Assembly: GCA_021442155.1 (NCBI GenBank)
Contig: CM038232.1
Span: forward strand, 57,939,436-58,003,435
Length of the DNA: 64,000 bases
Origin: Cymbidium sinense
Lineage: Eukaryota > Streptophyta > Magnoliopsida > Asparagales > Orchidaceae
Reading direction: 5' to 3'
Below, in pieces: positions 12,056 through 40,271 of the stretch; the first letter of the stretch is position 1, and each line of letters opens with the position of its first letter. The position numbers were made by a program, and so were the translations under genes. The notes beneath the pieces are model-generated. The model had not been told where the DNA came from and did no database searches. It saw nothing but the letters and a program-made list of their open reading frames with translations.

Positions 12056-12857
12056 TATCACATCATTTTGGATGAGCTCAACACCTCATCTACATACTTC
12101 AGACTTTAAGAGTTCCTTAGTCTTAAGACACATCTAGTGGTTAGGTGGACACTACTAGCAGAAGACTTTTAGCATAGGAATAGGTCATGCATGTGTTAGA
12201 AAATTTCTACAAGATAAACCATTCCTCACTTTCCTTCTTTCAAGTCAAACTCCAAATCAATACTATTTGAATTTCTCAAACTCAAATCAATTCCATGATT
12301 TAATTCTATGATTAAATTCCATGATTGAGATCCATGATTGAAATCCATGATTGAAACCCATGACCAAATTAATAAAATTTCAAGTTCAAATTTCAAGTCC
12401 AACCCTTTCTAAACTTAGCCAAAATCATGATTCAAACCTATTCAAATTTTGAGATTTTTCATCATTTATATTCTCATTTATATTCTTCATATAAATAAAT
12501 ATAAATTCAAACACATCAAATCAAATTCAAAATTCAAAATCACTCATGAAATTTTCTTAACTCCTTTAATTTTTCATTAATGGACTTAGCCAAAATCAAC
12601 TCCAAACCTTAATCAAACCTCTTCAAATTCATGGAATTTTCTCAAAACTTATTTATGTCCTCATTTATATTCTCATATATAAATATAATATAAATATAAC
12701 TAAATCAAATCAAACCCTCAAATTAAATTCCAAATTTAAAATGCTTGAAATTCCTTTAAATCCCTTAATTCTTCACAAATGGATTTAACCTAAACTTTGG
12801 TCAAATCATTTCAAACTCATGGGATTTTTTCAGAACTTATTTATATTCTCATTTATA

Positions 12858-13490
12858 CAATAACAACAACAACAAGCCTTAATCCCACTAGGTTCTACAT
12901 GAATCCTTTGTCTCCATTGTGTCCTATTATGTGAAATTCTCATTTAATTCAAGTATACCAAGATCATTTTTTTTATAATTTTAACCAAGTTTTTAGTCTA
13001 CCTCTACCTTTCTAACAAAGGCAAAATGATCTACTCTATGATCATTCCATATTGAAACCATCTCCACTCTCCCTAATCTTATCTACCATAAATACAACTT
13101 TTTTCTCAACATCCTATTTTGATTCTATCTTAAAAAAGCCACTCATCATGAGATCCTCATCTCAAATTTCTTAGTCTTACATTTCTTTATTAAATTCATA
13201 TTCATTCAAAATTCACCACCATCTTATAAAATTTTCATTTATAACTTTTCTATCAATAATAAAATGATTCCTCCACTTCAAATCCAACTTGAATTCTACA
13301 AAACTTATATTCACCATCATTTTGAACAATAGATAAATATTAAATATCTTATTAATGACTATCACTTATCAAATCAAAAAAATTAAATTTAAAATTAGAC
13401 TCATAATCCCTTAAATCTACTTAAATGATTACTCTAAATTGTCCATAATTCAAGTTTTTGTTGGATTCTCAACTTATCAACAAGAAGAAT
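12858..13490 (-). mobile_element. 5'-truncated RTE-type LINE, 3' end only
   Basis: This insert is missing from LTR1 and LTR3. On the minus strand it ends in (TTG)n. Just before that, a frame reads NRTQWRQRIHVEPSGIKA, the usual C-terminal end of plant RTE-clade LINE proteins (family pattern: ALDR..W..RIHVADP..LG). Further upstream on that strand GRGRLKTWLKL and RWFQYG-like pieces follow the same family order, with stops and frame breaks. It therefore landed in B's 5' LTR after B had inserted. The left border is sharp at 12858; the right border is uncertain by about 20 bases and I could not define a clean target duplication. Confidence 0.78.
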
Positions 13491-15672
13491 GTCTCAAAAA
13501 AATAAAATACATATAATCAATCAAATCCAATCAAAAAAATAAATTTCAATTTAAAAATTCTCTTAAATCCTTTAAATCCCTTTAATGGATTTAACCCAAA
13601 TCATGATTAAACTCTTTCAAATTCTTGAAATTTTCTCATGATCAATTTATATTCTCATTTATATTCACATATATAAATGAAATATAAATTCAAACAATCA
13701 AAACCAACTCCAAAAAATCAAACTCAAATCCACTCAAAATCAAATCTAAGCCTTTCAAGCTAAAATCTTGAACTTAGTCAAATCATCTTCAAATCAAGCC
13801 AAAAACTTGATTTTCTCTCATGGTTCAATCAATCCTACAATCATGAGCTCATATATAAATTCAAACTCCAATCAAACAATCAAAACCCAAATCAAAAATC
13901 AAACTCAAAACTCCTTCATATTCTTCCTTTGAATATGAAATTTCCAAATGGATCAAAATCTATTTGACTTCAAACCACTTGTAAATGGATTTATATTTCA
14001 ATCATAAGTCCATATACAAGATCAATCAAACTTCAAATCAAGCTTTGACCAAGCCATTTGACCCACTTAGGCTCACTTTTCCCAAAGTGACCTAAAGTAC
14101 CCTTATGAGCTAACTTTTGATCCTAATCAAATTAGATTGAATCAACTCATCAAACTCTCTCATAATGATAAACAATCATCATGGGATGATCAATCAATCA
14201 AATTGGGTCAAACCAAGTCAAACCTAAGGGTTGACCAAGTCAACACTTAACCTAAAATGAAACCTAACATAGCCAAAATCCACCATAAGCCAAATTGATT
14301 GAAACCATTGATTCAAGTTCACTCATGACCTATGTTTGAACTTGACCAAGTCAACATTTGAGCCTAACCTAACCCAATTGGCCCACTTGACCCAAGTTGA
14401 CCCATTTTGACCTAAAGGGCCAAAATGTGTTAAAACTTGATCTAAGCCAAATTGATTGAAACCAATGGGTCAAGTCCATCCCAAATCACTCGTGGTACTT
14501 GACCAAAGCTAATTAACCAACTAGACCCAACCTAGCCCAATTGACCTTAGACCCAAGATGACCTAAAGGGGTCATGTTGAGCCAAAATTGAACTTAACCC
14601 AAACTGATTGGAAAAAAGATACCAATCCACTCCATATGACTAACCAAACCCAAACCTACCCTTGACCTCACTTAACCAAATGGGTCAAATGGTCAAACTT
14701 GACCCATTTGACCTAAATGAGTCATATGAGCCAAAACCAAATCTAATCCAAATTGAACCAAACAAAGGCACCAAAACATTTCAAATGGTCATATGAACTT
14801 GACCCAAGCTTTGGTTTGACCCAATTTGACCAATTGGTCAACTTCACCCAAGTTGACCCATTTTGACCTAAATGGGTCAACATGAGCCAAACCCTATCAA
14901 ATGGATTCCAAATCCAATGAAACTTGGCCAAACCTATTTTCTCAACATACCAAACATACCCAAATTAAAAAAATAGCAAAATGATCATTTTACCCTAGGT
15001 CATAGAACAAATTTTGGCATAGTCCATGGGTATTTTGGTCATACCCTCATCAAAATCACTTGAGGCTTTCCTAAAAGCTCAAGGGGACCTAGTGATGAGT
15101 GGTGCACCCAACCCAATGGGTTTGGGTCAACCCATTTGACTCATGGACCAAACCCGATCCTTAGCCTTAAAATTGAAATTTCAAACTCCCCCCTAAGCTC
15201 AATTCAAGCACATGGGGAGTTGGCATTCCACTCCTCTGGCCAAACCGACCATGTTCAATGATCTAACAGCCAAAATGACACTCCATATGGTCAATTGGAT
15301 CAAAATGGCAAACTCATTGTCATTATCCATAGGGGAGATATACTCCCACTAAATTCACTTCACCAGGGTCTAGATAGAAATCATCGTGAGAGCATCCCTA
15401 ATCCTTCTAAGGAAGATTAGAATTGCTTCTTCTCAATTTTGCACTATGCAAAAATAGGGGAGGTGGAGTGATTAGAAAACTTCTTCTACACTTAATCCTA
15501 TCCAAATTCCTTCTACAATCATCATCTAAGGACCAAGTCGAGCTTGCCCAAGCATAGATTTGAGTTCCCACAGTAAGGAGAGCCTTAATTGGATCAAAGC
15601 CCCAAAGATCTTGAAGCGGAGTTGGTCAACCCATTGATTCACTCAACCTCAAGGCATAGTAACTTCAATAGG

Positions 15673-15695
15673 GCTTCGTCTCCATTAGACGAAGC
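15673..15695 (+). other. Conserved LTR stem-loop
   Basis: A 9-bp perfect stem, GCTTCGTCT with AGACGAAGC, closes a CCATT loop. A related stem-loop is at 61001-61021 in LTR6, and weaker versions precede the same 'TACCTC' word in LTR3 and LTR4. Function is unknown; an RNA structure in the LTR transcript is possible. Confidence 0.45.
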
Positions 15696-16019
15696 TACCT
15701 CATCGATCTCGAGCGTCGATGATCACCTCTGGCGAGGTTAGTGATTTTTCGACCACTTAGATTATGAGGTGTTGGTCCTTTGTGAAAGAAATTTTCATTT
15801 CATGTGAAATCCACCATTGGATTGGCTGCTCTATTCCTCTAAATGGTGTGGGTTGAGTCTTGAATGAATCTATGCTAGATCGGGCTTGGATCTCCCCTTG
15901 GATCATGGACAGTCTCCATTCATCCATCTCAATCATCCATCCCTGCATTTTAGATAGACGACTGAGATTAGTAGGCACGTTTATAAATCCTTTATCCATT
16001 TTATAAATTGTGAGTGTAT

Positions 16020-16165
16020 CCTCAGCTATCCGATCTTTGATCGGACAACTAAGGATATTAGCGCATGCGTCGCTAGCCGCCCCCTTGATTTGATGTTTAA
16101 GTGGCTCACGATGCATGTAAGCGTGGTCACCACGCCATGCCATCGCGTCGTGAGCGGTATTAAGG
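16020..16165 (+). promoter_or_regulatory. CpG-retaining GC islet in LTR2
   Basis: In an otherwise CpG-poor LTR this short block keeps many CpGs and contains the palindrome GCGTGGTCACCACGC (16121-16135). Counterparts sit at the same place in LTR1 (about 6385-6490), LTR3 (about 35755-35910), LTR4 (about 46720-46985), LTR6 (about 60535-60690) and LTR5 (about 63880-63995), each followed or preceded by a conserved 'gattagttaagg' type AT-rich block. It is a candidate core promoter or regulatory block; this is inference. Confidence 0.4.
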
Positions 16166-19100
16166 ATTAGTTAGGGATTTTAATTAATTCCTAATTAATT
16201 CAGAAATTATCTAAAAATCATAACTCTTCACATAAAAATCAAAAAAATTAAAGGAAAAATGCTATGGATAGATAATTTCATCTAAAATATTTTAAAAATA
16301 TTTTCAATGGATTTTGAATTCTCCTTTTCTCTAAATTTAAGTTTTTTTAGGAATTTTAATTAGCTAATTATTCTAATTAAGTACCAATTGATCTCAAATT
16401 TCTAGGGTTCATTTTAGAGATGACCTCTATCCCCCTAATTTTCTTGAGATTTATTGAGGGCCTTAATTGGGAAATTTTTCATTCCTAATTACCCTTCATG
16501 TAATATTAAAGGTATGATTAGTGGATTTACCCTTTGATTAAGTTTGATTAAGGTTTTATCCAGTGAGTAGGGGTTTTATGGAATAATTTTGGGGTATTTC
16601 CCCTAAGCTAATCACTAAACCCCCTTTTCTCTCCTTAATCCCCTCTTAATTAATCACTCCTTTAAAAATTTTCAAAAATTCTAAAAGGTTCCAGAACTTA
16701 ATTAATCTACCTTAGGTAGATGCTTAGGTCTTTAATAACCTAAGTCAAATTAAGGAAATTGAAGCCTATTTTATAAGTATGAAGAGGTGTTTTAAAAGTA
16801 CTTAAGTTAAAACCCCTTAGCTTAATTAACTTTTAATTGTGAGCCAAATTGCATTAGGCCTTTTCATTATTAGGAGCATTACAAATTTAAATACCTTGTG
16901 GGTTTTATATTGTCTCATTGGCCCATAATTACTTAGTTAATTTTCCTAAGGTGGTGTAGGTAAGAGGTAATTAAGCCACTTAATTCATACCTTAACCTAA
17001 TCAATGCTTAAAAAATGGATTTAATTATCTAAAAATTAAAAAAAATACAAAACACATGGGAATGGGTTAAGAATAGTAAACTCATCTCACCTTTTCAAAA
17101 TTAAATCAAACTTCAAACTAAACAAAATTATTTTTGAAATTCACTTTGATTTATTCTAAATTTTCTTATTCCTTAAGAATGTCTTTAGGATTTAAGTAAA
17201 GTCAGTTTTTATATAATTGCATTGCTATAGATTTTTCCCAACATGTTAAGTTGTATGCCATGTGATTCATGCATTCATAATTTTATGTTTCAAAATTTTA
17301 AAATGAAATTGTTTACTTTATGTCAAATGTGCATGTGTTGGCTAAAGTAAAATATGAGTGACGATTATCACTACTAAATCCAAAATATTTTTAAACTTTA
17401 TAAATGAAACATATAATATGAAAGTATGCTATTCTTATATCTTAATTATAAGCTTGCATGTAATAGATTATAAAGCATATTTAGCATAGGTTCCTTTCTT
17501 TCTTATGTTAGCATACTTTTGAATAGGAGTTAGTAAGATGTAGGGTTCATTTGAAAAGAACCTAACAGTTTCTTAATTCCAAAACCTATTCATCCCTATG
17601 CTCATCTAAAAGTTTATACTTGCATGAATAAATTGCATAAACAAAACAAATCTATTAAACAACTTTTGCATCTTCCTTTTCCATTTATTTCTTTTATATG
17701 CATGTTGTACTTAAGGAAAGTGGTATATTAGTCTACAACCCAGGTTTGAGGCTTTAAGTAGCCTAAGTAGGTCTTGTACCTTACACCTCAGTTAACAATG
17801 GCATTGTACTCACTTATGCCTTTCTTACTTTCATGTATGTATGTGAAATTTTGGATAAGGAAAACCTTTCTACTTAAGAAAAATCATGCATATTAACTTC
17901 TAAATTTTCTTAAATGATTACTTAGCATGCATCATAAAGTGTGTTAACTACTCTCATTTGCATGTATAGATATGCTTAGGGTCCATCCATATGCATGTTA
18001 TATATGTTGGGAAAGAATTGAAGTAATGTGTGTTATGTGAATTTTGATTCATTTTATTTAATCTTAAAATGCCTTTCTTTTTGAATAGGTTTGTTTAGAG
18101 TTTATCTAAACTTAGGATTGATTAAAAGATGTAATCAAAACATTCACCTAAATGAAATTAAAATGTGAACTTACCTTTAGAAATTACTTAAGATTAGGGA
18201 AGGAAAGAAGTTCTCTTCTCTTTCCCTCTCTTTATAACAATTAATTGTAGGTTTCACTCAAATAAAATTAAAATATGAAATAAAATAACCCAAAAACTTA
18301 AACAACTTAAATGAAACCCTCCTCTAAGTTGAACATGTCCTTCACACTTAGAAAATTTGAACCTAAAGTCTAAGCTAAGCATATACACACAAACCTTCAA
18401 AGCATATTAGCCTAAGTCACCACTTCTAGCTTTTAGGTGTGCATGGTTTGATGTTATGTTTTATTTTGTGATGAATGTTTTAGACTGGATGTTAGGGTGT
18501 ATGCAGTAGAATGAATGGTAGGATGCTTAGTCTAACTATTCTTTTTTCAAGATTGTGCTTAAGGGGCACTATCATAAATAAAAATATAAATGCTTCTTGC
18601 TTGCAGGTGCTTATACCCCTTAACATAATCCATAGGCGGAGTGGACTTAGTCCCAAGTGTGGGGTGATAAGTCCAATATACATGCTTAGATTTGTGGTGT
18701 GATTTGACTAACTTTATTTTGGTGTTAGTTAGATTTATACTTTTCCTTTCCATGTAAAATTTGTATATTTAGGATTTTGGAATGATTTGTTATGGGATTA
18801 GGATGAGCATTGGTCATAAGATCTTATACACCATGTGAAATGGAGCATCCACCATCTAACCATCCAAATGAGGAACCAAAGAAGAAAAGAAGAAAGAAAA
18901 AAAGAAGAAAGAAGAAAGAAGAATAAAGCTTGAAGACCCCCATAACAATGAATTCCTTTGCTTAAATTGTAATTCAATTCATTTGTATAATGGGTTGTAT
19001 AAGGGTAGAGCTCAGCTATTTGATATTTTTTTGTTTGTGGTGGTACCAATGACCATTTAATCTTTTTACAATTAGCTTTATAAATTATTTGATGATTTGT

Positions 19101-20438
19101 TTAGCTTTTGCATTAAGTGGCATGCTTTTCTTTCTTCCTTGCTTTATGTATGGCAGGATGTGGATTAGGCTCTTTAGGAAAAAAAATCTTTTTTACCCAA
19201 CTTAACAATTCAAATTAAAATTAAAAAATAACCTCACCTCACCTAAAGCTTAGGATTAAAATCAAGATAAAAGAATTAAACCCTTAGCTGGATGCATTTC
19301 TTTATAATATCATGCACAAATGCATCTTATTTCACTCTTGATTGGAGGGCTTCCATCTTTTCCGAGAACCCTTGAGCTTTAAGGGGTGGTGGAAACTCAC
19401 CTCCTACTTCTGTGATTTTGGCCAATAATCTACTTTCTCATGCATTAATCATAAAAAATCCTATTACTGAGTCAAAATGATTGTCCAAAATGAAAAATAA
19501 TATGAAATTTGAATTACATTAGATTTAGGTCATTTGAAGCATGCCCTTTACATGATCTAGTCTCTTTAGGTGAATTTAAGGACTTAGTCTCTTTCTAAAT
19601 AAAAATACTAACTATCTTGCATAAGCATAAAGACTTGTACATGTATTTAAAATCATAGGAGTTAGTTGGTTGGCCACCCAAGGTTGTAAGTGTTATTGGT
19701 GGTTTGTCCTTTCTTGTAGGAACCAATTACCCATTTTTGCCATTTAAGTTGTGCTTTTGGCCCTAATGAGGCTCCCTAGATTTAGGTTACGAGGTTGCTT
19801 CATGGCATAATTCCTCACCTCTTAGGCATTTCCTTAATCTTGTGTTAAGGAATCTTAAGTCTTAAAATTCTAATGAAAATGCAACTCAAACAAATTAAAT
19901 CAATTTCCAAAATGTAAAGCTCAACTGTAGGATAGTTTGAGATGCTCGCTAGGTTTCCTAGCATCATGAGCATCTCCTACTTATTTCTATTTTGGCTTCG
20001 ATAATAACTCTCTCTTTTGATCAATCCCATTTGATCTTCAAATACAAACCAATCGATTGATAGTCCTTCCTATTAAAATCTTCAAAGGCAATGATCATTT
20101 ACCTTAATCGAGTTTTCCTAAGGATCCTTAGTATGTAATTTATGGGGCTTGCCCTGTGAGAACTTAATGAACCCGATTTAAAAAACCGCTTTACTTTTCC
20201 ATGTAAAGTAGGGAAGAATCTACATATGTATCATCATCCTTAGGAGTCTTATTGAGGTGATTGGTTCCATTAAAGGTAGTCACTTCGTCTTTGAGATACT
20301 ACTATACCTTGATGACATGTCCATCGAATAAGTACATCTATGGCATCTTACCAAGATGAATTTTGTAAGGTCTCTTTCTTTTCTCCCCACAAATTTGAAA
20401 GTGACTCCATTATAGGAAATTTTCTCCACAGATTTTTT

Positions 20439-20460
20439 TGGCGACTCCACTGGGGATGGT
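20439..20460 (+). other. Primer binding site, tRNA-Arg-like
   Basis: The block TGGCGACTCCACTGGGGATG starts with the TGG expected to pair with a tRNA CCA end. From memory of the family, Ogre elements use a very similar site assigned to tRNA-Arg. It lies 8 bases after the CTCCACA end of LTR2, a larger gap than usual. No such site follows LTR1 or LTR4. Confidence 0.82.
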
Positions 20461-21340
20461 TCCTCTCTCCATCTTTGGTAAATGATCATTGTCTTTGAGT
20501 ATCGATAGTGGGTATATGAATCCAACTATCCTTCTTTCATTGGCACTTAGCTCATTTCATCTTGAGTTAAGTTAGCCAACATCTTTAGGTTTTAGGACCA
20601 CATTCCTTGTTGGTCTTAAAACCCCGTTATCCAATGGGTAAAATGAAAAGATCTAAAATAAAAAAAAACATCTTTAAGACTTCCTCCTTATCATTTTCAT
20701 GATAAAGGTTCATCTAAAATAAAATATAAATCTTCCATAAAGAACTTTGCTTTTCAAAAGCACCTTTTCAAAATGCACTTAATAAAATATTTTCCACAAA
20801 ATTTTTCACCCTCATTTAACAATTCATGTAATTGTTACATGTAGGGATTTTCAAAAATAAAACTAATAATATTTTCCAAAAGCACAAATGAATACCTTCT
20901 TTTAATTCACTTCGATGAAGATTTCATTTTTTTTTAAAATAAAATGAACAATCTTGTTTTCCAAAAATCACAATCATAATCATAATGTTTTCAAAAAGCA
21001 CACATGAATTCTTCTATTCAATACATTCACACCTATTGAATGGAAAGTTCATTTGTAAATAAAATCAAAATTTTCAAAAAAAAAAAAAAAACACACACAC
21101 ACACATGAATACTTTCATTTAATATGCTTAGGTTTGTTAAATGAAGATCATTTAGGAGATCTTACTTAAGCATATCCCACATATGTTTTTAAGTTAGAAT
21201 TACTCTCTTTCAAAAAAGCAACAATCACATACAAAATACAAATCTCATGTTTCAAAAATAAAATGGATCTCCATCTACATACTTAAATTTGTTGAATGAA
21301 GGTCTTCTTTTCAAAACATTAAAACCAACAATCATATTTC
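20461..21340 (+). other. Leader of element B, 5' part
   Basis: This is untranslated leader without a convincing open frame. It is A-rich, with repeated 'tttcaaaaa' words. Loose inverted repeats appear near 20810-20840, 20895-20930, 21010-21050 and 21103-21140 and look like early, diverged members of the hairpin array that follows. A poly-A plus CA run lies at about 21078-21104. Confidence 0.6.
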
Positions 21341-23095
21341 AAAATTTCAAACAACATTTGAAACTTTTAACATACCCAAATTTGTTAGAAAGTCTCCAAA
21401 TTAAAATCCAAATCACATTTGAAATTTCATTTAATACCCAAATTTGTTAAGTAAAGTTTCCAAATTCAAAATCAAAATCAACAATCACATTTTCAAATTT
21501 TCTAAATTTTGGAACTTCATAACATACCCAAATTTGTTAAGTAAGTCTCCAAATCCAAAATCAAAAAAAAAAATTTTTTAAAACACATTTGGAACTTCAC
21601 TTACATACAAAATTTGTTAAGTAAGTTTCCAAATCAAAAATCACATTTGAAAATTTTCTAAATACATTTTGGAACCCACTTAACATACCCAAATTTGTTA
21701 AGTGAAGTTTCCAAAATCAAAAATCTTTCAAAACACATTTGGAATTTCACTTAGCATAACCAAATTTGCTAAATGAAGTTTCCAAATCCAAAGATTCAAA
21801 ATCAACAATCACATTTAAAATTTTTTTAAACACATTTGGAACTTCATTTAACATACCCAAATTTATTAAGTGAAGTCTCCAAATTTAAAATCCAAAAATT
21901 CAAAATTTTCAAACACATTTGGAACTTCATTTAACATACCCAAATTTGTTAAGTGAAGTCTCCAAATTTAAATCCAAAAATTCAAAAAAAAAAAAAATTC
22001 AAACACATTTGGAACTTCATTTAACATACTTAAATTTGTTAAGTAAAGTTTCCAAATCCAAAATCAAAATTTCAAAAAATTTCAAAACACATTTGGAACT
22101 TCATTTAACATACTTAAATTTGTTAAGTAAAGTTTCCAAATCAAAATTCAAAAAATTCAAAACACATTTTGGAACCTACTTAAATATAAAATTTGTTAAG
22201 TCTCCAAATAAAATTTAAAAAAACATATTTACCTCAACATTTGTTAAGTTTTCAAATCAAAATTTCAAACAATATTTGGAACTTCATAAAATAAATCAAA
22301 TTCAAAACTTTGTCAAAACATATTTTTTAACTTCACCTAGCATACTCAAATTTTCTAAGTAAAGTTTCCAAACTCAAAACAAAAATTTCTCACACACCTT
22401 TGGAACTTCTTCCTTTAGCATACCAAATTTGCTAAGGAGAAGTTTCCAATTTTCAAAATAAAAATGAAATCAAAATTTTAAACACAGCATTTGGAATTTC
22501 ATTTAGCATACTCAAATTTTTGCTAAGTGAAATTTCATTAAAAAATTTCATCTTTAGCATACCAAATTTGCTAAAGTTGAATCTCCACTTTCAATCATTT
22601 CAAAAATAAAATGAAGCACCTTAGGATCCCCTTAGCATACCAAATTTGCTAAAGGATCCTACCCTTTTCAAAAAATCAAAATAACACTTGGATTCTTCAT
22701 TAAGCATACCTAAATTTGCTAAGTAAGAATTCCAAAATTTTCCAAAATAAAAAAAAATAAAATTTTTAAAAAGAAATAATCACTTTCACTTCACTTAGCA
22801 TACCTAAATTTGCTAAGTAAGTAAAAATTCCAAAACATTCAAACAAGACAATATCATTTGACCCTTACTTTAACATACCTAAATTTGTTAAAGGAAAGGG
22901 TCCTCGAAATCAAAAAAAAAAACTCAAATTCAAAACAAATGAACCTATGGAAGCATCCTATCAAAATTTTGAATCCATATTTCAACATACTCAAATTTGT
23001 TGAAGTTTGGATTCATACTCAAATTCTTCTTTCAATCAATCTTTCCAAATTCATTTGAACCCACTTAACACTTCCAAGTTGTTAGATTTGGGTTC
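21341..23095 (+). repeat. Tandem array of hairpin-forming repeats in the leader of B
   Basis: About 20 units recur every 70-110 bp. Each is an inverted repeat: left arm ending TTAACA or TTAGCA, a loop close to TACCCAAATT, and right arm starting TGTTAA or TGCTAA. A poly-A/TCAAAA spacer separates units. Examples are 21671-21712, 21838-21880, 21921-21963, 22402-22447, 22624-22659, 22690-22733, 22860-22903, 22971-23014 and 23057-23095. The arms differ between units but stay complementary: GGATCC with GGATCC (22624), GACCCTT with AAGGGTC (22860), GAATCCA with TGGATTC (22971), GAACCCA with TGGGTTC (23057, looser inside). The array precedes gag, a position where 5' RNA structure could act in packaging, translation or reverse transcription. 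Open frames through it (21919-22218, 22858-23058) are repeat by-products. Confidence 0.9.
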
Positions 23096-24300
23096 AAATT
23101 TTCAAAATTCAAAAATTCAAAATCTATGGAGACAAAAATGATGCAAGTTCATTTCTCATTCTGATTTTTTTAGTGATTCAATTTTGGTTTGGTTTACTTA
23201 TCAGTGCAATGGGGCTCTAAATTCATCTTTACCTTCCCTCATGGATCTAGCCTTGGATGGTGACTTCCCTCATTTGGATTGATCCATTTTGTATGGATTT
23301 GGAGATCACTTGTGAGGGCATTCCCCTCATGGTCGGCGAAGAAGGTGGTGGCGGCCGATCATCGGGTAGACTTACCCTCGATTGATGTCCTCATTGAAGA
23401 GGAAAGTGGTTACCACAAACTTTGGTTTAGTCTGATACGCATTCAATTCTAGTGGTGGTTCATCCTCGAGTTGCACATGTTGCCAAGTGCTGCACCTATC
23501 ATCTATACCCTCCAAGGGTAAGGCTCCCCTAGTTTTGGCTTGCCTCCCACATTTGAGTATGGTCTAGCTCACACTCCTTACCATCATAAAAGAACCGTAT
23601 GGTCAAATGATTCCATATTGATAGCGAGAGCTTGAGGTAGGCAGGTCGACCATGGATGAGTCTACGATGATCACATCACCACTGGTTACAGAGAACCAAT
23701 TTCATCCTCTCTCAGAATCAGATAGAGAGGATGCAGGATCCATCATCTCCTCAGTGGTGCATCTACAACCAAAGTTTCTCAGTAGGAGGTGGTCTTTCTT
23801 CTTCCCTCGTGAGAGCATATATGCTTTGAGTCGGTCTTTGATTTATGATTATCCCCAACAGGGAGGTAGATCCATCAGGAGAGGGATTGTGAGGCCCACA
23901 CATCATACATATCATACAGCGACCAGGTTCAGCATCGGTCAACTCTACCTTGGTTGACTTTCCATTTCGGTGTGTACCATCTGATAGTATCCTCCTCACA
24001 GGGACCATCCATCATAGGAGGGCAACTCCTGTACACAGAGAGTCGGTGGTGTCTCCACCCCATCGCTCAACACCCATTCCATCCAAGGCCATGAAGGCCA
24101 CATCCGGGAAAAAATGTACCCCGTTGGTGATCCGGTTATGACCAAGGGATTCTACTCTTCCTACACCACCCATTATGGTAGGGCCAAGTTCTCATGCTTG
24201 ACCTTATAGTGGTGTGCGGAAGGAGTGGCCCAGCATCATGGTCTTCCTTCACCAACTCCACCCATTCAGCGGATCTGAGATGGTGATGGTTCTAGATATT
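23096..24300 (+). other. Leader to gag region of B, unidentified
   Basis: This part is more GC-rich than the array before it. It holds a frame of 101 residues (23652-23957) with a serine/acidic start (MDESTMITSPL) and another at 23950-24141. I cannot match either to a known family. Ogre elements may carry an extra ORF upstream of gag, so a decayed copy of that, or the N-terminal part of gag, are the two likely readings. No counterpart occurs in A or D because those parts are outside the window. Confidence 0.4.
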
Positions 24301-25690
24301 CCGGATGATGATTAGTGGCGGTAGAGGATCATCCCAAGATTGTTACCCTATTACAGCCAACATTGATTATCATTCTTCTAGTGAGTACATACAAGATTGA
24401 CTCAACTTAGTGAGGTTGGTGCCTCTGTTCGATGGCGATCACACCAAGCTATTTATACAGTAAATTAGATCAATCCTTAGATGAGATAGTTGCACACTAT
24501 TTTATGGAGAAAAAGGAGATCTTAGATGCATGCGATGAAGAAAGAGTCGATCCGAAGATGACTTGATGGGGATTCAGGTGTATGCATGGTCAATACTATA
24601 GGTTCTCTTCTTAGGGAATAATAGGCCATGGAAGGTGATGAGGTTGATCAAGGAGACACCACAAAATCAACCCATCACCTCATAAGGTAGAAAGATGAGC
24701 AGTTGATAGGCACAATTTGCAGGACTTGTTGGCGTAGTGCTTGAAGCAAGCCCCTCAGTTCATCCTATACAATGTCGTTAGTCAACTGAGCTAGTCATGT
24801 CTTAGATCCAGTTAAGACTCTACCTCCCATTGAGCAAGGTAGCACTAGTATGTATAGGAAGGTAGTGGATAGTACCTCCATACATGAAAAGATCTGAAAT
24901 CCATGGTTGAGCAGCAGGTGAAGGAAGCTTGGCTCAAGCGGGAGGATCATCGTTCAAAGGGTAGACCCCGGAGGAATTTGATGCTATCCAATATCCCAAG
25001 GGTTTCATGCCTCCTTCCTTCAAGAGCTTGATGGTAGTGAATCGACATAGCTCACTTGGTAGTTGTTTGCAACATGGGTGCGTGATGCTTTACTCTTTAG
25101 ACTCTTTATTAGTAGCCTATCGAGTATCACTTTTTATTGGTATGTTGAATTGCCCAATGATTGTTAAGACATTTGAGTTAGAGTAACTCTTCATCAAGAG
25201 ATTTCTTTGGAGCTTCAGAAGGGTTATATAGGTGATCTCATTGTAGCCCAACAACACTCGGTGAGTCACTTGTTGATTATATTCTGATAACTGAGTATGA
25301 AGTGTGAACCTGAATATAGCATGCAAATGCCATTGAGATTCTCTTGAAGAATATCCATGGCCAGGCCTTCATGCTTAAGGGCTTCACCATAAAGACATTT
25401 GAGAAGCTAATCAATAGGACAACTAGTCTACAAGGAGAGGCCAAATAGTTGCCTTTTTTAGATCAGTTGCAAAATCCCAAAAGGTCTATGAGAAGAAACC
25501 TGAAGCGGTAGTTGACGGTTGAGAAGCGACGACTAGAGATCAGTCAGACCATGACCTGTAGCCTCCACCTCCTTTTTCCACCAAGCAAACATACCGGCCT
25601 CCACGGCCACCACCACCGCCTGACCACCCTCCCATACCGGTGCATGCATATCCACCAGGTAGCTATGGTCCACTACTCTATTAGATAAGT
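24301..25690 (+). pseudogene. gag: Element B gag remnant
   Basis: This is the capsid region of B, badly broken. The clearest part is the C-terminal half near 25340-25440, where a frame reads LKNIHGQAFMLKG followed by TFEKLIN, a pattern like the gag end of Tat elements (family: LLPEYQ..M...PL.TFE.L). A proline-rich tail follows (about 25566-25683: PPPPFSTK, then RPPRPPPPPDHPPIP) and ends in a TAG. Upstream, 24360-25300 has stops in all frames and only weak likeness to capsid sequence. Gag would form the virus-like particle. The order leader, gag, zinc-finger block, protease fits the lineage. Confidence 0.6.
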
Positions 25691-25779
25691 TAAACAAACC
25701 TTATTCTTTTAAGAGGAGGTAATCAGGCTTTAAGAATCTTAAAGAAACTTGATTTTTAGCTAAGAGACGAAGTTGGCAA

Positions 25780-27290
25780 AGTCATGATCCAAACTTTTGC
25801 CCTTACCACCATATGCTAGGCACATTTTGGAGGATTGCTTTACATTCAAGGATTGGCTTGAACAGTTTCAAGAGGTGTATCATTATCCCAAAGGAATACC
25901 TTGTGGAACAACCTTCAGTTCCATTAGGGTAATCCTTGGGGATAGATCCTACCAAAACCAAAGAAGGTTGGGACATTTCTTTGTCTAAAACCTCTAAGAA
26001 AATAGAAGATCAAGAAGCTTTCCTTGTGTGTCAACTCAAACCTCAACACCAAGGAAGGTTTGCAAGTTCAATGTAACTCTAGGAAAGTGGGAGCTGAGGT
26101 AGCGGGCATGTGCTTAGGATAGCCCCTGCCACCCATCGTGTCAGATTCTACCATTGCGGCTTCCACACGGTGACTTCTACCATTTAGTTCTTCTATTTTT
26201 TGTACTAGTAGAACTCTTGTATCGGCGGATAAGGGCATCAAATCCCTTACCACTCACTTACTTGACTTCTACTTTGTACTCCAAATGCTTCCAAGAAATT
26301 GAAGAATAAAGCTAATTTGAATTACATCATGTCTCTTTGATGAGTTATCTTCTTCTATTCCTAGATAACTCTTCAAGTCTAATTAACTATAATTTTGATC
26401 TTCCTCTTTATATTTAGAGTTGGACTTTCCAACTCACGAATACTATGGGTTCCTCTTGAGATAGACTTAGAATCATCGATTTGAGAGTCCATAGGAGAAG
26501 GCTGGGTGAGCTTTGAAGTAGTAGAACTTGCCACCACCTTGCCTCCAGATATTACTGAAGTCAACCTTCGTAGTGGCAAGTTCTACCTCATAGGATAGCA
26601 CCTCTAGATGGAGGAAAACAAGTCATTGGTACTGAAGATCAAGAATCCCCTCTACAAGATACTCCACCTTTGGATATGCTTGTGGAAGACTAGCCGAAGG
26701 TGGAATATGATGTCCTTTCTCATCTAAGCTAAGCATAGATGATGCCCTTGTCTTATCCAAAGAGATGAGGGAATCACTAATCAAGTCTCTCCATGATCTT
26801 GAAATATGCTTAGCTTTCAATATAGGTGAGGAAGCACACTATGCAAAAGAAGCCCAAGGGATGAAGACTTTCTTGGGGACTTGGAGCACAACCATCCCTA
26901 TACATTATAGTTGACATGGGCAGTTGAGACTCCCAGGTTCTCATGGATTAGGTGCATCAGCAAACATTATGAGTCTAAAGACCCTTATTTGAAGATCAAC
27001 ATCTACTCTCAGGAGATAGGATGATGTTGTTGAGGATTCAATGATCAAGGTAGTGATTTAGGTTCTATAGTGTTTCATTGAGATCGATGTGAAAGGCTGA
27101 AGCTAATTCTACATCATTTTGAATACTTCATTCTTGCTTTTCTTGGTAGGCCTTGGATACATCAGAAAGATCAGTTCCATCCCTTCATCGATTGTATCAA
27201 GTTGAGAAAGATGGAATTAATTGCGGGGGGCAAAAACCTTTCTCAGTTAGAGAGGTTGAGATTTATGAGGATGCGACCTATTATCTTTCT
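25780..27290 (+). pseudogene. pro: Element B Cys/His block and protease remnant
   Basis: At 25795-25870 two frames together show a Cys/His cluster typical of the gag-pro border in Tat elements: CPYHHMLG in one frame, then HILEDCFTFKDWLEQF in another, so a frameshift lies between. An aspartic protease start is suggested near 26910 by a VDMG-like motif after a hydrophobic run. The strongest landmark is LGRPWIH at 27142-27162, inside LAFLGRPWIHQKDQF, which marks the protease C-terminal side in this lineage. The matching motif in D is at 52518-52538. The protease would cut the Gag-Pol polyprotein. Several stops and frameshifts make it non-functional. The minus-strand frames here (26379-26579, 26623-26820) are shadows. 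Confidence 0.72.
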
Positions 27291-27840
27291 CAAAATATCC
27301 TTTCTCATAAACTTGGACAAAATTTAAATGCAAATGCAAAAGCAAAATAAAACGAAGCAAAATAAAAGATAAAATAAAATGAAAAGGAAAAGAAAAGTCC
27401 AAGTGAGCAAGATAGGGGAATTGAAGAAGTGGATCCGCATATCACATTGCAGTTCATTCCATCCATATGGATATATGGGTAGAATGGTTCAACCTCCACT
27501 AGGTAGAATAGAAACAAGGTAGTTCAGGGAGACCTAGTTGGCCTTGAAATAGATGTCATGTTCCAGTTAGGAGTACTATTCACATAGACTTGGAATCTAG
27601 CTAGAAGGATGAGTCTAATGTGATTAGTATACAAGCCAACCCCTAGTGGGTTTCATTGGAGGTGACTTTTGATCCAACAAGAGACGAAGACCAGGCCTCC
27701 AAGAAAAGTAAAGTATTTGAATCTGGTTCATGTGAAACTATTTGGCAGTAGCTAGGAACCTTAGCTCTTACCTCACACGAGAAAGTTGAAGGTTTAGTAG
27801 TTAAGGAAGTCCCTAAGTCTTCAGTGACATAAGCGAGAAG
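27291..27840 (+). other. Pro-RT linker of B
   Basis: The linker begins with a lysine/alanine-rich low-complexity run (27325-27400). It then holds decayed sequence without recognisable domains, and from about 27720 the part that corresponds to the start of the A remnant at 10802. In Ogre elements an intron has been described between pro and RT; I see no splice signals clear enough to claim one here. Confidence 0.45.
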
Positions 27841-29110
27841 AGGTTCTTTTTGGGCTCATCATCCTCAAGTCGAGCTTGATGTAGGACTTGAGGAAGATAC
27901 AATTAATGGAATTACCTTTTGACTTTTACGTCTTGTGCTTAAAATCTTATACTGAAGGTTTAGTTCCTTACACTTGGTCCAAGCTTCAGTCGAGAATAAA
28001 AGTTATGGAATATCTGAGGAAGCACAATCAAGGCGACTAGGATTGATATAGTGGGTCGGTCGATGAAGAAAGATTATTACTGTTGTCACCATATTTGGAT
28101 TTTGATAGATTCTCCTCACATCCCCAACTCTTATGAGAATGTGTGTTTAGAAACTTGAGATGATCGGATGATCTCAAGTCAAGAGGCACCCGAGTTTGAA
28201 GGGAGATTCATTCAATAATTGACAAGATAAAAGAAGTCAACCTTGGGACAAAAGAAAATCCTCACGACATACATGATTCGTTCTTTGAATGAAGAAAAAA
28301 CATGACTTAGTTAGGCTATTGGATGAGTTTAAAGGCGCATTGGAGTTATGAAGAAATATCGGATTATCTCACGTTGTGTCCACAAGCTAGCAATACATTA
28401 TTAAGCAAGCTAGGCATGCGATTAGAAATTGAACAACATGTCATTTTGAAGTCGACGTCGATGTTGGTTTCATCGAGGGAAGAAAAATATCCTATTTAGT
28501 TAGTGTCATCTCGGTTAAGAAGAATGGAAATTCATTTGCATTGATTTTAGGGACTTAAATAAGCATGTCACAGGATGAGTTTTCTCTTCTATAGAATTAA
28601 TGGTGGACATTACTCATCTCTCATGCTTCTCTTTCATGGATGGATCATTTAGCTATAATCAAATAGATGTCTCTAAAGATGAAAACGCTTTCTAAACCCA
28701 TTCGAAATGCCTTTTGCCTTAAAAAATGTTGCTACATACCAGCGAGCCGACTCAATTCTTCAACGAACTCATCATCATCGGGTTGGGTGCTGTTGATGAT
28801 CTAGTAGTCAAAGGCGAAAAGGAAGACCATCTCTTTGACTTGAGTTATTTTCAAATGGTTAAGACAATATAACAAAATAATCCCCAGAAGTGTTCATTGA
28901 GGAACTTTGGGAAATTCTTTAGGTTTGTTGTTGGGAGTAATAGATCAAGAAAGAAAAGATTAAAGCTATCTTAGAAATGCCACCTCACGGAGAGTTTAAC
29001 TCAACTTCGGAGATCCTTTCAAAGGATGGGTGTATCTAAGGCTGCTTTATCTCGCAAACTTATGGGAGATGCAAGCCCTTACACTTTCAAAAGGATGCTA
29101 AATTCAAGTG
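27841..29110 (+). pseudogene. pol: Element B reverse transcriptase remnant
   Basis: This is the RNA-dependent DNA polymerase of B. Landmarks in order are an LGTKENP motif (about 28238-28260), the HKLAIHY region (28380), RLEIEQHV (28420-28445), ICIDFRDLN-like sequence (28535-28560), FMDGS-like sequence with the first catalytic Asp (about 28635-28650), and the catalytic box, here A-V-D-D (28789-28800) instead of Y-V-D-D. The IKAILEMPP motif is near 28960-28985. Compared with the homologous half in A, it carries many losses of 1-12 bases that shift frame, and several stops. The protein cannot be made. Nucleotide likeness to A is clear through the whole domain, including the KGEKEDHLFDL tail after the active site. 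Confidence 0.85.
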
Positions 29111-29570
29111 GGATGACAAGTGTATGCATTTAAGACATCAAAGTACATCCCTATCAGGTCTGATCCTTTACCTTCTTGCATTGGATGACTCTCTATTGCT
29201 CATTGGCCCAAATAATGATGAGGAAGAAAAGCACTCTACTACCTCGTCATCATCGATCCTGAAGCAAACTATCCACCTATTGAAACATTGCCTAGCTTTG
29301 ATCTTTGCATCTGAGAAGCTATGACACTACATATTTTCTCATAAGGTGAACTTTATCTTAAGAACCAATCCACTACAGTACCTCATGACACGGCCAATGC
29401 TTTCCAGATGTTTGGCTCGCTGGTCCATGATACTCTCACAGTTTAATATCATATTTGTACCCCTCCGTGAAGTAAAAGGTCAAGCACTAGCGGATTTCTT
29501 AGTAGCACACCCACTTCCTGCTAATTATCTACTTAGTGACGATCTCCTCGATGATCAAATCATGAACTTA
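29111..29570 (+). pseudogene. pol: Element B RNase H domain remnant
   Basis: This is the RNase H that follows RT in Ty3/gypsy elements and degrades the RNA strand of the hybrid. Frame 29124-29324 shows LLALDDSLLLIGPNNDEE, then IHLLKHCLALIFASEKL. The next frame (29346-29642) shows LRTNPLQYLMTRPML, RCLARWSMILSQFNIIFV, then GQALADFLVAHPLP. This matches the conserved order 'H-C-L-A', 'T-D...P-L', 'A-D-F-L' in this family. A single stop and a frame change separate the two frames. The corresponding part of A lies at about 40610-41000. Confidence 0.85.
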
Positions 29571-29960
29571 GGGAAAACTGGCAACTGCCGATGGGAGATG
29601 TATTTTGATGGTGCTGCTTCTTTTCTTAAAGGTGAAGCATGATTATCTTGTCCAGAAAGCGGGGAAGGAATAGTTCTCTAACTCAACTTGTGAGATTCTC
29701 ATACTATCTTTTCAACCCTGTACCAACAAAGCAGTATGAGGCTTTGATTTGGTTTGGAGTTAGCCATCACTATCATGTCAAGCATCAACATCTTTGGGAT
29801 TCTTAGATGGTCATCAACCATTATTGGGTCCTACCAGTCCTCAAACAAGCTTCATCATTACTGAGTATACCATGAATGTTGGATTCCCATCTACTACAAG
29901 GTTCCCAGAATGAGAACATAGTAGCGGATGCCTTGGCCCTTGAAGAGTTGGCATGTCGGA
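29571..29960 (+). pseudogene. pol: Element B second (archaeal-type) RNase H remnant
   Basis: The domain starts WEMYFDGAA at 29592-29618, in the same frame as the end of the first RNase H. Later pieces correspond to the family pattern: GLELAIT-like sequence near 29755, the 'IIGSY' piece near 29822, and an 'ENIVADALA'-like piece near 29915. The first Asp of the active site (YFDG) is kept. A second, separately acquired RNase H placed between the usual RNase H and integrase is known from the Tat lineage and supports the classification. Stops at 29640 and beyond disrupt it. Same arrangement in A at 41066 onward. Confidence 0.78.
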
Positions 29961-30059
29961 AGATGAGTCCATTTCAATAAGGGTCCAAAATAGACAAATC
30001 CTATCCTTATTGATTGAACTCATAGAGACTTTCTCTTGAAGGGAGGTTGTCATTTTCAA

Positions 30060-31210
30060 AATGGACAAGAGCTGGGTGAAGGCAATAGATTACTTGAACA
30101 GAACAAACCTCAAGAGAAATCTCAAGCCATCGGGTGAAACAAAGAATTTCACTCTTGTTGATGGCACCTTGTAATCCTTTGACAAAATATGGTTATGTTA
30201 TTTAGACAAACATGAAGCTGATTATAATCGAGGTCGGTTATGTGGAGCTCATCGGTGGTCAGAAGATGAAATGAAGATCAAAGACTTGGATACTCGGCCT
30301 TCTATGATCACGCAGTCATGGATGTAGCTAGAGATGCCATTAGTGTCGTGCGGTGTGGTCCTCCACCACCACCCAACATTCTACACCTACATTGACTTCA
30401 TGGCCATTTGAGTGTTGGTACCGTATTGTAGGTTCGATCGATCCTCCTTCTTCCAAGGGCATCAATTCATCTTAACTCTGCTACTTTTCAGTGGGCAAGT
30501 CATCCACTCGAGAGTCATACTCACCATGTGCTTCAATTTTTCAAGAACCATATTGTATATAGGTTCGGGGTGCCTCGATGAATTATATCCGATAATGGTA
30601 TTTCATTGAAAAGCACAAAGATCAATAACTTTTCCAGAAGACACATTATAGATTGGAGATACTCCACCATCTACTACCCCAGAGCTAATGGTTTAGAAGA
30701 AGCATTCAACAAAACTCTCATCCAGATACTAAAGAAGACTCTTGATGATAATGCGAGTGGAATGTTGTGGTTAAGCTTGTGGGCCTACCGCACCACATAT
30801 CAAACTCAACTCGGTCTATTTTCTTAGTGTATGGGTTGAAGCCATTCTTCCTTAGAAGTTCAACTCCATCACTAAAGGATAACATTGGGTAACAAGATCA
30901 CTATAGAGCGAATGCAAAGTTGCTGGTTAGAAGAGCTTGAGGTTTGGAGGAAAGTCACCGCGAGAACCTCAGTTGTACAAGCCAAAATGATTCAAGCTCA
31001 CAACAATGGTCCACCCAGTCTTTTAGTAGGAGAACTTGTTAGTCAGGAGACTAATTGTTGCCCTTCAAGATGGGAGGCAAGTTTGAACCACTTGGGAAGG
31101 CACATGTCATAGAAGGCCTACCAAGGAGGATCTTATCATCTTATTGATTGTAAAGGGGAACAGTCGATGCTTCCAATTAGTGGGCTCTATATAAAGAAAT
31201 ATTACCCATG
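30060..31210 (+). pseudogene. pol: Element B integrase remnant
   Basis: The integrase inserts the cDNA into host DNA. The N-terminal zinc-binding part is represented by LCGAHRW near 30240-30260. The catalytic core shows the DNG region near 30590, then YSTIYYPRANGLEEAFNKTL (30658-30717), which contains the third acidic residue, then LWAYRTTYQTQ. The C-terminal part, around 31060-31190, corresponds to the clearer version in A (42577-42882). The core is split among at least three frames and contains stops (for example at 30603 and 30824). There are 350 bases of poorly matching sequence between the first RNase H pieces and the zinc part. Confidence 0.83.
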
Positions 31211-32573: not shown

Positions 32574-35500
32574 TGTTGACTTCTTTTTTAGGATGAGCTC
32601 TCAACACCTCCATTTATACATAGACTCTCTTAGACTTTAAGTTCCAGTCTTAAGATCTAGTGATTAGTGGACACTCCCAGCCCAGAAGACTTAGAAGAGT
32701 TAGTCCAGGAATAGGTCATGCTTGAGTATTAGGAAAATTTTACCCTTTAGCTTAAACCATTCCTCACTTTCCTTCTTTCAAGTCAAACTCCAAATCAATC
32801 CTATTAGATTTTTTCAAACTCAAATAAATTCCATGATTCAATTCCATGATTGAACTCCATGGCCAAATTCCATAAAAAATTCCTAAATCCTTAATTCTTT
32901 CTTAAGGACTAAGCCAAAATCATGATTCAAACCTATTCAATTTTTTGAGATTATCTCTTGATCTATTTATATTCTCATTTATATTGAGATTTTCTCTTGA
33001 TCCATTTATGTTCCCATTTATATTCTCATATATAAATGAAATATAAATTCAAACCCATCAAATCAAATTCAAAATTCAAAATTCAAAATCAATTCATGAA
33101 ATTTTCTTGAGGCCCTTTAATTTTTCATTAAAGGATTTAGCCAAAATCAACTCCAAACCTTAATCAAACCCCTTCAAATTCATGGGAATTTCTCAAAACT
33201 TATTTTTCCTCATTTATATTCACATATATAAATGAAATATAAATATAACTCTGTCAAATCAAACCCTCAAATTAAATTCCAATTTTAAAATGCTTGAAAT
33301 TCCCTTAAATCCCTTAATTTTTCATTAATGGATTTAACCTAAACTTTGATCAAATCATTTCAAACTCATGGGATTTTCACAAAACATATTTTTATTCTCA
33401 TTTTTGTTCTCATATATAAATGAAATATAAATATAAATCAATCAAATCTAATCCAAAAGTTAAATTTCAATTTAAAAATTCACTTAAATCCTTTAAATCC
33501 CTTTTAATGGATTTAACCCAAATCATGATTAAACTCTTTCAAATTCTTGAACATATTTCATGATAAATTTATATTCTTATTTATATTTACATATATAAAT
33601 GAAATATAAATTCAAACAATCAAAACAACTCCAAAAATCAAACTCAAATCCACTCAAAATCAAATCTATGCCTTTTAAGCTAAAATCTTGAACTTAGTCA
33701 AATCATCTTCAAATCAAGCCAAATCATTGATTTTCTCTCATGGTTCAATCAATCCTATAATCATGAGCTCATATATAAATTCAAACTCTAATCAAACAAT
33801 CAAAACCTAAATGAAAAATCAAACCCAAAACTCCTTCATATTCTTTCTTTGAATATGAAATTTTCAAATGGATCAAAATCCATTTGACTTCAAACCACTT
33901 ATAAATGGATTTATATTTCAATCATAAGTCCATATACAAGATTAGTCAAACTTCAAATCAAGCTTTGACCAAGCTATTTCACTTGACCCAAAGTGACCTA
34001 AAGTACCCTTATGAACCAACTTTTGATCCTAACCAAATTGGATTGAACCAAACTCATCTATCATCAAATCATCATGGGATGATCAATTCAAATTGGGTCA
34101 AAGTCAAACCTAGGGTTGACCAAAACACTTAACCTAAAATGAAACCCATAGCCAAAATCACCATAGGCCAAATTGATTGAAACCATTGATCCAAGTTCAC
34201 TCATGACCTATGTTTGAACTTGACCAAGTCAACATTTGAGCATAACTAGCCCATTGGCCCACTTGACCCAAGTTGACCCATTTTGACCTAAAGGGCCAAA
34301 ATGTGTCAAAACTTGATCTAAGCCAAATTGATTGAAACCAATGGGTCAAGTCCATCCCAAATCACTTGTGGATTGACCAAAGTCTTTGCCAACTAGACCC
34401 AACTAGCCAATTGACATTCAACATGACATAAAGGGGTCTTGTTGAGCCAAAATTGAACTTAACCCAAATTGATTGGAAACAAAGATACCAATCCTCCATA
34501 TGTAACCAAACCTAAACCTACCCTTGACCTAACCAAATAGGTCAAATGGGTCAAATGGGTCAACTTGACCCATTTGACCTAAATGAGTCATATGATCCAA
34601 AACCAAATAATCCAAAATTGAAGGCACCAAAACATTTCAAATGGTCATATGAACTTGACCCAACCCTTGGTTTGTTGAATTTGACAATTGGTCAACTTGA
34701 CCCAAGTTGACCTAAATGGGTCAACATGAAAACAAACCTATCAAATGGATTCAAATCCAATGAAACTTGGCCAAACCTATTTCTCAACATACCAAACAAA
34801 ATTAAAAATAACAAAATGACCATTTTACCCTAGGCCATAGAACAAATTTTGGCTAGCCATGGTATTGGTCATACCCTCATCACTTGAGGCTTTCCTAAAG
34901 CTCAAGGGACTAGTGGTACACCCAATGGGTTTGGGTCAACCCATTTGACCCATGGACCAAACCCAACCCTTAGCCAAATTAAAATTTCAAACTCCCCTAA
35001 GCTCAATTCAAACATGGGAGTTGGCATTCCACTTGCCAAACCAACCATGTGCATGATTTAACCACAACCTCCATATGGTCATTGGATCAAAATGGCAAGC
35101 TCATTATGCTCGATTGCCATAGGGGATATACTCCCCAAGTCAAAAATCTCACCACTCACTCGATTGGTCAGAAGTTAGCAATCATCAGAGAGCATCCCAA
35201 GCCTTAAGAGATTGATCTTCTTCTTGATTTTGTGTAGAAATAGGGGAGGTGGAGTGATTATCAAACTTCTTCTACACTTGATCCCAATTCCTACACTCAT
35301 CATCAGGACCAAATCAAGCAGCCCGCTTCCATGAGTTCCCACAAGGGAGAATTGGATCAAAGTCACAAGGATCTTGAAGAGGAGTTGGTCCACCATTGAT
35401 CCACTCAACCTCAAGGCTAGAAACTTCAGGCTTGTCTCCACTAGAAGCTACCTCATCGATCTCAGTGTGATCACCCAGTGAGGTTGATTTTGACCACTTG

Positions 35501-38500: not shown

Positions 38501-40271
38501 TGTAAAAATTTGTATATTTAGGATTTTTGAATGATTTGTTATGGGGGATTAAGATGATAATTGGACATAAGATCTTATCTTATGCACCATGTGAAGCCTT
38601 GGAGCATCCACCATCCAACCATCCAAAGGAGGAACTAAAGAGGAAAAGAGGAAAGAAGAAAAGAAGAAAGAAGAATAAAGCTTGAAGCCCCCCATAACAA
38701 CGAATTCCTTCGCTTAAATTGCAATTCAATTCATTTGTAATCTGAGTTGTATAAGGGTAGAGCTTGGTTACCCACATTTGATATTTTTGAGTTTGTGCGG
38801 TGGTGCCCGACCATAAACAACCATTTAATCTTTTTGTGATTAGCTTTATAAATTATTTGATGATTTGTTTAGCTTTTGCATTAAGTGGCATGATTTTCAG
38901 TTTCTTCTTGCTTTATGTATGGCTGGATGTGGATTAGGCTCTTTAGGAAAAATAAATCTTTTACCCAACTTAACAATTCAAATTCAAATTAAATAACTCA
39001 TAATCTCACCTAAAGCTTAGGATTAAAATCAAGATAAAGAATTAGCAACCCTTATGGATGAGCATTTCTTTATAATATCATGCACAAAATCTTATTTCAC
39101 TCTTGATTGGAGGCTTCCACCTTTTCCAAAGAACCCGCTTGACCTTTGAGGGTTGTGGTGGAAACTCACCTCCTACCTTCTTACTAATTTTGGCCAATAA
39201 TCTGATTTCTCATGCATTAGTCATAAAACTCCTATTAGCCTAAGTCAAAATGATTGTCCAAAAACAAAATAAAAATGAAATTTGAATTGCAATAGATTTA
39301 GGTCATTTGAAGCATGCCCTTTACATGATCTAGTCTCTTTAGGGAATGAGTTTAAGGACTTATTCTCTTTCTAAAAATAATATATCTTGCATAATCATAA
39401 AGACTTGCCTATGTATTTAAAATCATGGGAGTTAGTTGGTGGTCACCCCAGATTTTTAAGTCCAGTTGTCGGTGGTTTGTCCTCACTTGTGGAGGCAAAC
39501 TAATTACCCATTTTTCACCTTAGATTTAGGATGTGCTTCTGGCCCTCACTGAGGCTCCCTACATGTAGGTTCTGAGGTTGCTTTTCCCCTTTGTGGGCCA
39601 TAAGCATAATTCTTCACCTCTTAGGCATTTTCTTAATCTTGTGTTAAGGAATCTTAAGTCTTAAAATTCTAATGAAAAATGCAACTCAAACAAATTAAAT
39701 CAATTTCTAAAATGTAAAGCCCAACTATAAGATAGTTTGAGATGCTCGTTAGGTTTCCTAACATCATGAATATCTCCTACTTATTTCTATTTTGGCTTCA
39801 ATAATAATACCCTCTTTTGATCAATCCCATTTGATCTGATCAATAAACCAATCGATTGATAGTCCTTCTATTGAAATCTTCAAAGACAATGATCATTTAC
39901 CTTAATCGAGTTTTCTAAGGGATCCCATCCCGAGGATGTAATTAACTATGGGGCTTGCAGAGAACTTAATGAACCCAATTTAAAATAAACCCTACTTTAC
40001 TTTTCTATGTAAAGTAGGGAAAGAATCTCTGGTACATATGCTGACCCATCATCCTTAAGAGTCCTAATTGAGATGATTGGCTCAATTAAAGGGTAGTAAC
40101 TTCTACCCTTTGAGATGATATACTATACCTTGATGATGTATCTGATCACCGAATAAGTACATATGTGGATTTGCATGGAATCTTACCAAGATGAATTTTT
40201 GTAAGGGTGTCCTCTATCTTTTCTTCCCATAGATTTGAAAGGTGACTCCATTATAGGAATTTTTCTCTATA
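32574..40271 (+). repeat. LTR3, 3' LTR of element B (7.7 kb)
   Basis: The LTR starts TGTTGAC at 32574 and ends CTCTATA at 40271, followed by the ATAAT duplication. It is collinear with LTR2 but lacks the LINE insert. Compared with LTR2 it has lost many short words (2-12 bases), most densely at 34240-35500. It contains the TTGACC zone (about 33960-34730), the CpG islet (about 35755-35910) and the GAA tract (about 38626-38687). The end CTCTATA differs from CTCCACA of LTR2 by two C to T changes, as expected from loss of methylated cytosines. Confidence 0.92.

Follow-up and report, generated by a model that had tools for sequence, protein, structure and literature searches.

A covarying hairpin array in the leader of a decayed giant retrotransposon from the orchid Cymbidium sinense

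Results

The leader of a giant retrotransposon in Cymbidium sinense contains a tandem array of hairpins in which the two arms of the stems change together, and the analysis of a 64-kb window (the whole stretch of DNA that was studied, 64,000 nucleotides) confirms this observation. The core of the array lies on the + strand at 21249–23101, where folding, alignment and a covariance model place stems, a loop near TACCCAAATT and intervening linkers, and it sits between the PBS (20439–20456) and the presumed coding region. The predicted stems of the core span 8–24 pairs, mostly 12–20, and the linkers between units are A/C-rich and G-poor. The initial annotation described about 20 tandem units at 21341–23095; the array itself stands, with 23 units aligned, whereas its extent does not, as the start was clipped and consensus-like units run from ~21000 to 23101. 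The four stems quoted there, at 22624–22659, 22860–22903, 22971–23014 and, for the CTTC.TCC/GGAGAAG type, 22402–22447, were all found in place. At the 5′ edge, folding predicts two divergent hairpins (21000–21175, + strand; 21000–21056 and 21122–21175), which the covariance model also matches (21000–21054 and 21103–21154), and, upstream of the array, further + strand hairpins with unrelated loops at 20504–20846, for example 20540–20579, 20588–20623 and 20809–20846. The covariance model recovered 22 of the 23 units on the + strand at E ≤ 0.01, as expected by construction for a model built from these same units, with unit 22555 missing, and added one unit at 21103 (E 0.0086 on the + strand and 0.0019 on the − strand). 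Many units were matched on the − strand as well because near-palindromes must be. Outside the leader, the model gave a single weak match in the whole window, at 3675–3724 (E 0.073). Open frames of 109 and 77 amino acids within the array were taken as stop-poor, A-rich sequence and a coding reading was rejected.

Pairing of each arm with its own partner (−13.93 kcal/mol) is clearly stronger than with the arms of other units (−8.28 kcal/mol), a result reached by none of 100,000 permutations. Units 22180 and 22337 are exceptions, pairing with their own partner worse than the mean of their row. Swapping arms between adjacent units lost energy in 16 of 22 cases and gained it in 2. The observed advantage of own over cross pairing, 5.77, was likewise reached in none of 200 runs of a null evolved along a phylogeny without pairing constraint (sd 0.40, maximum 1.49), so that the proposal that the arms change together holds against a null of this kind as well. 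This null used a FastTree tree of the units, substitutions only and a fixed HKY model, and the tree behind it is poorly resolved and long (13.6 substitutions per site in total). Hairpins in the null are much less stable than the real ones, with an own mean of −1.5 kcal/mol, and the spread of the null may therefore be too small; the permutation test is free of this decay problem. The signal is present in both the inner (z −4.3) and outer (z −6.4) parts of the stem, persists when three near-duplicates are dropped (z −6.1) and is found in a by-eye selection of 11 divergent units (z −4.9). For the outer stem in the other 12, canonical, units alone, covariation was not significant (z −1.5, with 3355 of 50,000 permutations equally good or better). 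Across 22 distinct rows of the inner helix, which comprises 8 pairs, 92.9% of cells are paired, compared with 31–44% when the arms are slid, and 17 cells have changed on both sides. None of 500 shuffles reached this last count, the paired fraction or the covariation score, and two of the five pair-count measures lay within the shuffles (both-side-changed pairs, 82 of 500; pair types, 277 of 500). RNAalifold recovers the same inner helix, including one pair that is AU in 13 units, GC in 8 and gapped in 2, which bears out the proposed exchange of AACA/TGTT and AGCA/TGCT as pairs. Non-Watson-Crick combinations account for 51 of 429 aligned pairs (12%), with 36 gaps counted apart. This is near the 8–10% breakage predicted from LTR decay alone, and the stems may thus have been nearly perfect at insertion. 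A comparison across three LTR copies gave 1 compensatory pair of 307, the copies being too similar. Higher conservation of stem columns in LTR hairpins was set aside as evidence, as the pairs had been picked for their presence in at least two copies.

The leader as a whole is strongly folded. Compared with 100 dinucleotide shuffles for each strand, its MFE has a z of −17.7 on the + strand (−456 against −227 ± 13) and −8.2 on the − strand. Folding with a 70-nt span yields 35 hairpins of at least 8 pairs in 20460–23110, a number close to that in shuffles (32.7 on average), and it is the stability that differs. In 250-nt windows across the whole window, the leader ranks among the most structured parts alongside segments of the LTRs, and strong hairpins in the window number 68, whereas three block shuffles gave 8, 10 and 10. 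Four units pair poorly (21367, 21429, 22180 and 22337, with own energies of −6.4 to −2.3 kcal/mol).

Conservation is uneven along the unit. Loop columns have a mean identity of 0.78, those of the inner stem 0.71 and those of the outer arms 0.46, the last probably an underestimate because the alignment hangs on the core, and it is a 22-nt core that is conserved and the outer arms that are not. The six best-conserved columns read AAATTT, which is exact in the loops of 21 of the 23 units with its final T belonging to the closing pair, and which places a self-complementary hexamer at the tips of predicted hairpins near the presumed 5′ end of the RNA. The replacement of stem sequence with pairing and loop kept is better explained by selection on the hairpins than by drift of a tandem repeat. 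The initial annotation had argued that plain repeat drift would not keep the arms complementary; the nulls agree with this, but correction by template switching could also do so. Such a mutational origin, in which a palindromic unit was amplified by reverse-transcriptase slippage and perfected by intra-strand template switching with no selection, is in our view unlikely, although it accounts for several features. These include the tandem order of the units, two of which are identical over 54 nt (22005–22058 and 22089–22142), the wholesale replacement of the outer arms in divergent units, equal numbers of G-T and A-C mismatches, and the fact that the LTRs are also rich in hairpins. However, a process that perfects palindromes would leave the loops free, and the loop is better kept than the outer arms, so that selection on the hairpins again fits better; the occurrence of single-pair swaps and the restriction of G-poor linkers to one strand also count against this origin.

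The composition of the array differs between strands. On the sense strand, G makes up 16% of the stems, 1.9% of loops and bulges and 2.5% of linkers, and the share of all G found in stems is 0.84, compared with 0.61 ± 0.05 and a maximum of 0.74 in 100 shuffles. When the whole leader is folded with a partition function, the mean own-pair probability is 0.56 on the + strand and 0.32 on the − strand, with 13 and 7 of the 23 units, respectively, above 0.5. The confinement of G to stems together with the better whole-leader folding of the sense strand favors a sense RNA, although both follow from composition and could have a mutational cause. The mismatches lend no support to an RNA reading through wobble, since G-T and A-C occur 14 times each in the array; in LTR hairpins the corresponding counts are 6 and 10 by majority and 28 and 38 by cell. 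This absence of wobble bias, and a hairpin stability that is alike on the two strands (−13.9 on the + strand and −14.4 kcal/mol on the − strand), would also be compatible with an element acting as DNA, in which the repeated inverted sites are bound by a chromatin protein or are extruded as cruciforms, for instance as an insulator. A precedent is described for Drosophila LTR retrotransposons, whose 5′ UTRs can carry tandem repeats, some of them insulating (PMC8872304). We regard a DNA-level role as improbable, as a protein recognizing a dimeric site would conserve its half-sites, whereas the outer arms retain their pairing at an identity of 0.46, and the composition is strand-asymmetric. Covariation may be compatible with the cruciform variant.

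Strong hairpins that precede the presumed coding region could also act in translation, with ribosomes bypassing the array by shunting or entering internally at it. ATG is scarce on the + strand of 21341–23095 (5 against 15.9 ± 3.3 in 200 shuffles), which is weak support for this role; over the whole leader it is at a normal level (26 against 27.9 ± 4.2, with 21 upstream of 21300) and, as the units share ancestry, their missing ATGs are not independent, leaving translation control distinctly improbable. The minus strand of 21341–23095 has more ATGs than expected (53 against 39.3). An array of small-RNA precursors that feeds or deflects Dicer-like enzymes would suit stems of mostly 12–20 pairs, but it would not predict conservation of the loop, and with 0 Rfam matches at gathering score in the whole window, and hence no known ribozyme or riboswitch family, it is hardly credible.

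The array is hosted by what we presume to be a decayed Tat/Ogre-like Ty3/gypsy element of ~28 kb, a size that, together with its very long LTRs, agrees with this lineage. Self-comparison of the window, which is plant-like DNA crowded with decayed retroelements, reveals direct repeats of ~7 kb and delimits an inner element of ~28.2 kb with LTRs of ~8.4 kb (5′, 12056–20430) and 7.7 kb (3′, 32574–40269), both on the + strand and with approximate ends, set by eye for the 5′ LTR. Directly 3′ of the 5′ LTR lies an exact match to the PBS TGGCGACTCCACTGGGGA (20439–20456, + strand), which is putatively antisense to tRNA-Arg, by analogy with an orchid Ogre-like element (PMC9289625). The search pattern was typed from the letters of the window itself, and its sole other match in the window at up to 3 mismatches is at 44320–44337 on the minus strand, with 3 mismatches. 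The long LTRs and the PBS agree with the placement of the array, in the initial annotation, in the leader of a giant retrotransposon; the interpretation offered there is, as a whole, partly supported. The presumed decayed gag-pol region (23625–31112, + strand) was recognized by DNA homology of its RT (~27839–28861) to the RVT_1-bearing segment 10918–12048, and gag was not identified within this region. The RT piece at 11626–12051 matches Pfam RVT_1 with E 1.1e-14; its best relative is 72% identical, and that from the orchid Dendrobium catenatum 70%. A RT_RNaseH match in the inner element (29325–29639, E 0.0054) and an RVT_3 (RNase H-like) piece in an outer copy (41120–41278, E 4e-4; 20.7 bits, cut-off 21.6) are both below the Pfam cut-off and stand in different copies; the weak RVT_3 match may point to a dual RNase H as in Tat elements. 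We read the arrangement as a nested insertion in which the inner element interrupts the pol region of an older member of the same family, whose sequence continues from 40274, and the ATAAT/AATAAT at the two ends of the inner element (window 12049–40274) is a possible target duplication of 5–6 bp. In the older copy, ~140 bp separate LTR homology from RT homology, and its leader therefore seems to have been lost. The LTRs of the inner element have diverged by a K2P of 0.08–0.10, indicating that it is old and dead, and no closed stop-to-stop frame of 150 amino acids is present anywhere in the 64-kb window. Weak Pfam matches to Dsl1_N, Keratin_assoc, ASMase_C and SCP-1 (23.6–31.4 and 40.4–42.9 kb) are below the cut-off and were taken as chance, and the piece 41480–41845 has no protein relative. 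Searches of viral contigs gave no relative of the RT piece and 0 matches to a sequence pattern, a plasmid search gave no match, and 2 pattern matches in genome contigs, both bacterial, were taken as chance.

Similar structure is found in the LTRs. A segment of the 5′ LTR (13500–14930, + strand) is hairpin-rich and G-poor, as are its homologous segments at 4060–5620, which was folded, and 33000–34750, for which z-scores alone were obtained, indicating that this structural style extends beyond the leader. Short hairpins of the LTRs, such as 4315–4341, 4345–4368 and 4937–4962, lie on the G-poor strand as in the leader, and one of 43 nt is identical in two copies (4379–4421 and 13978–14020). The 3′ LTR also contains a tandem duplication (33155–33503; 188 bp, 81% matches). 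Elsewhere in the window, a related LTR family, ~64–70% identical, occupies 55087–62711 in minus orientation, an adjoining stretch (55087–55938) matches the LTR in plus orientation, and the flanks of the region match 45264–46896, as if an LTR had inserted with an internal inversion. A weak RVT_1 piece at 54073–54330 (E 6.4e-4, below the cut-off) belongs to a further decayed element.

Discussion

The persistence of pairing while stem sequence changes suggests that the folded shape was important to the life cycle of the element when it was active. Our preferred reading, held tentatively and at somewhat less than even confidence, is that the array consists of cis-acting hairpins in the sense RNA that served as a multivalent dimerization or packaging signal. 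Retroelements carry dimerization and packaging signals at their 5′ ends. In the transcript, about two dozen hairpins, most presenting AAAUUU at the loop, would be spaced by A/C-rich linkers that hardly pair. Selection would have acted on this RNA during the active life of the family, leaving stem sequences free to vary provided that pairing held, and the mutual divergence of the stems would keep units from mispairing with one another. The loops would then offer multivalent dimerization through kissing contacts, a Gag-binding packaging signal, or both, for a very long genomic RNA. Counting against this reading, AAATTT is a weak A/U hexamer that is also frequent outside loops, with 21 of its 45 occurrences in the leader at loops, and the covariation evidence comes from one dead copy. 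A more specific proposal, which is speculative and which we think rather unlikely to be correct in full, is that some two dozen insulated hairpins, mutually distinct in their stems but having one self-complementary loop in common, made the leader a modular, multivalent kissing-loop scaffold for packaging, in a style that reaches into the LTRs. If true, such a scaffold would pair or condense the very long genomic RNA of a giant element for packaging.

To our knowledge, little is established about RNA signals that act in cis in plant LTR retrotransposons, and the array points to a testable dimerization or packaging signal in giant elements. With two dozen natural variants of one hairpin in a single transcript, it also constitutes an internal covariation experiment that does not need other genomes. 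In Fabeae, 57% of the variation in genome size has been credited to Ogre elements (PMC4659654), to which the orchid element is probably related.

A close counterpart by description is Gypsy_Pa_2799 of Phalaenopsis, reported as a giant Ogre-like element of 25.5 kb with 6.4-kb LTRs, an RT sister to Ogre within Tat, a PBS antisense to tRNA-Arg and a dual RNase H (PMC9289625). The likeness lies in giant size and long LTRs, and the main text of that paper nowhere uses the word "hairpin". BARE is a plant LTR retrotransposon of the Ty1/copia type. Conserved dimerization and packaging signals are mentioned for it in PMC3735527, the main text of which uses "hairpin" and "stem-loop" 0 times. Tandem repeats in the leader have a parallel in Drosophila, where PMC8872304 describes them in the 5′ UTRs of 19 of 49 LTR retrotransposons, ZAM, accord and Tirant among them, some with insulator activity; insulator action has been reported for leader sequences of gypsy, Idefix and ZAM. 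In that source the Drosophila repeats are described as DNA motifs or insulators, whereas those of the orchid element are hairpins with covarying stems. Yeast Ty3 dimerizes in vitro via PAL6, a palindromic hexamer located at the tip of a hairpin close to its 5′ end (PMC11381356), and the predicted orchid hairpins resemble it in presenting a self-complementary hexamer at the tip near the presumed 5′ end of the RNA. As described there, however, PAL6 is a single GC-rich site that, judged from its order among the listed palindromes, lies in GAG and not in the leader, in contrast to the leader array of the orchid element. No covarying hairpin array in a retrotransposon leader was found among the top-ranked matches listed from the openly accessible literature. 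Leader tandem repeats and giant orchid Ogre-like elements were already known, and the covarying hairpin array is without counterpart among the matches listed.
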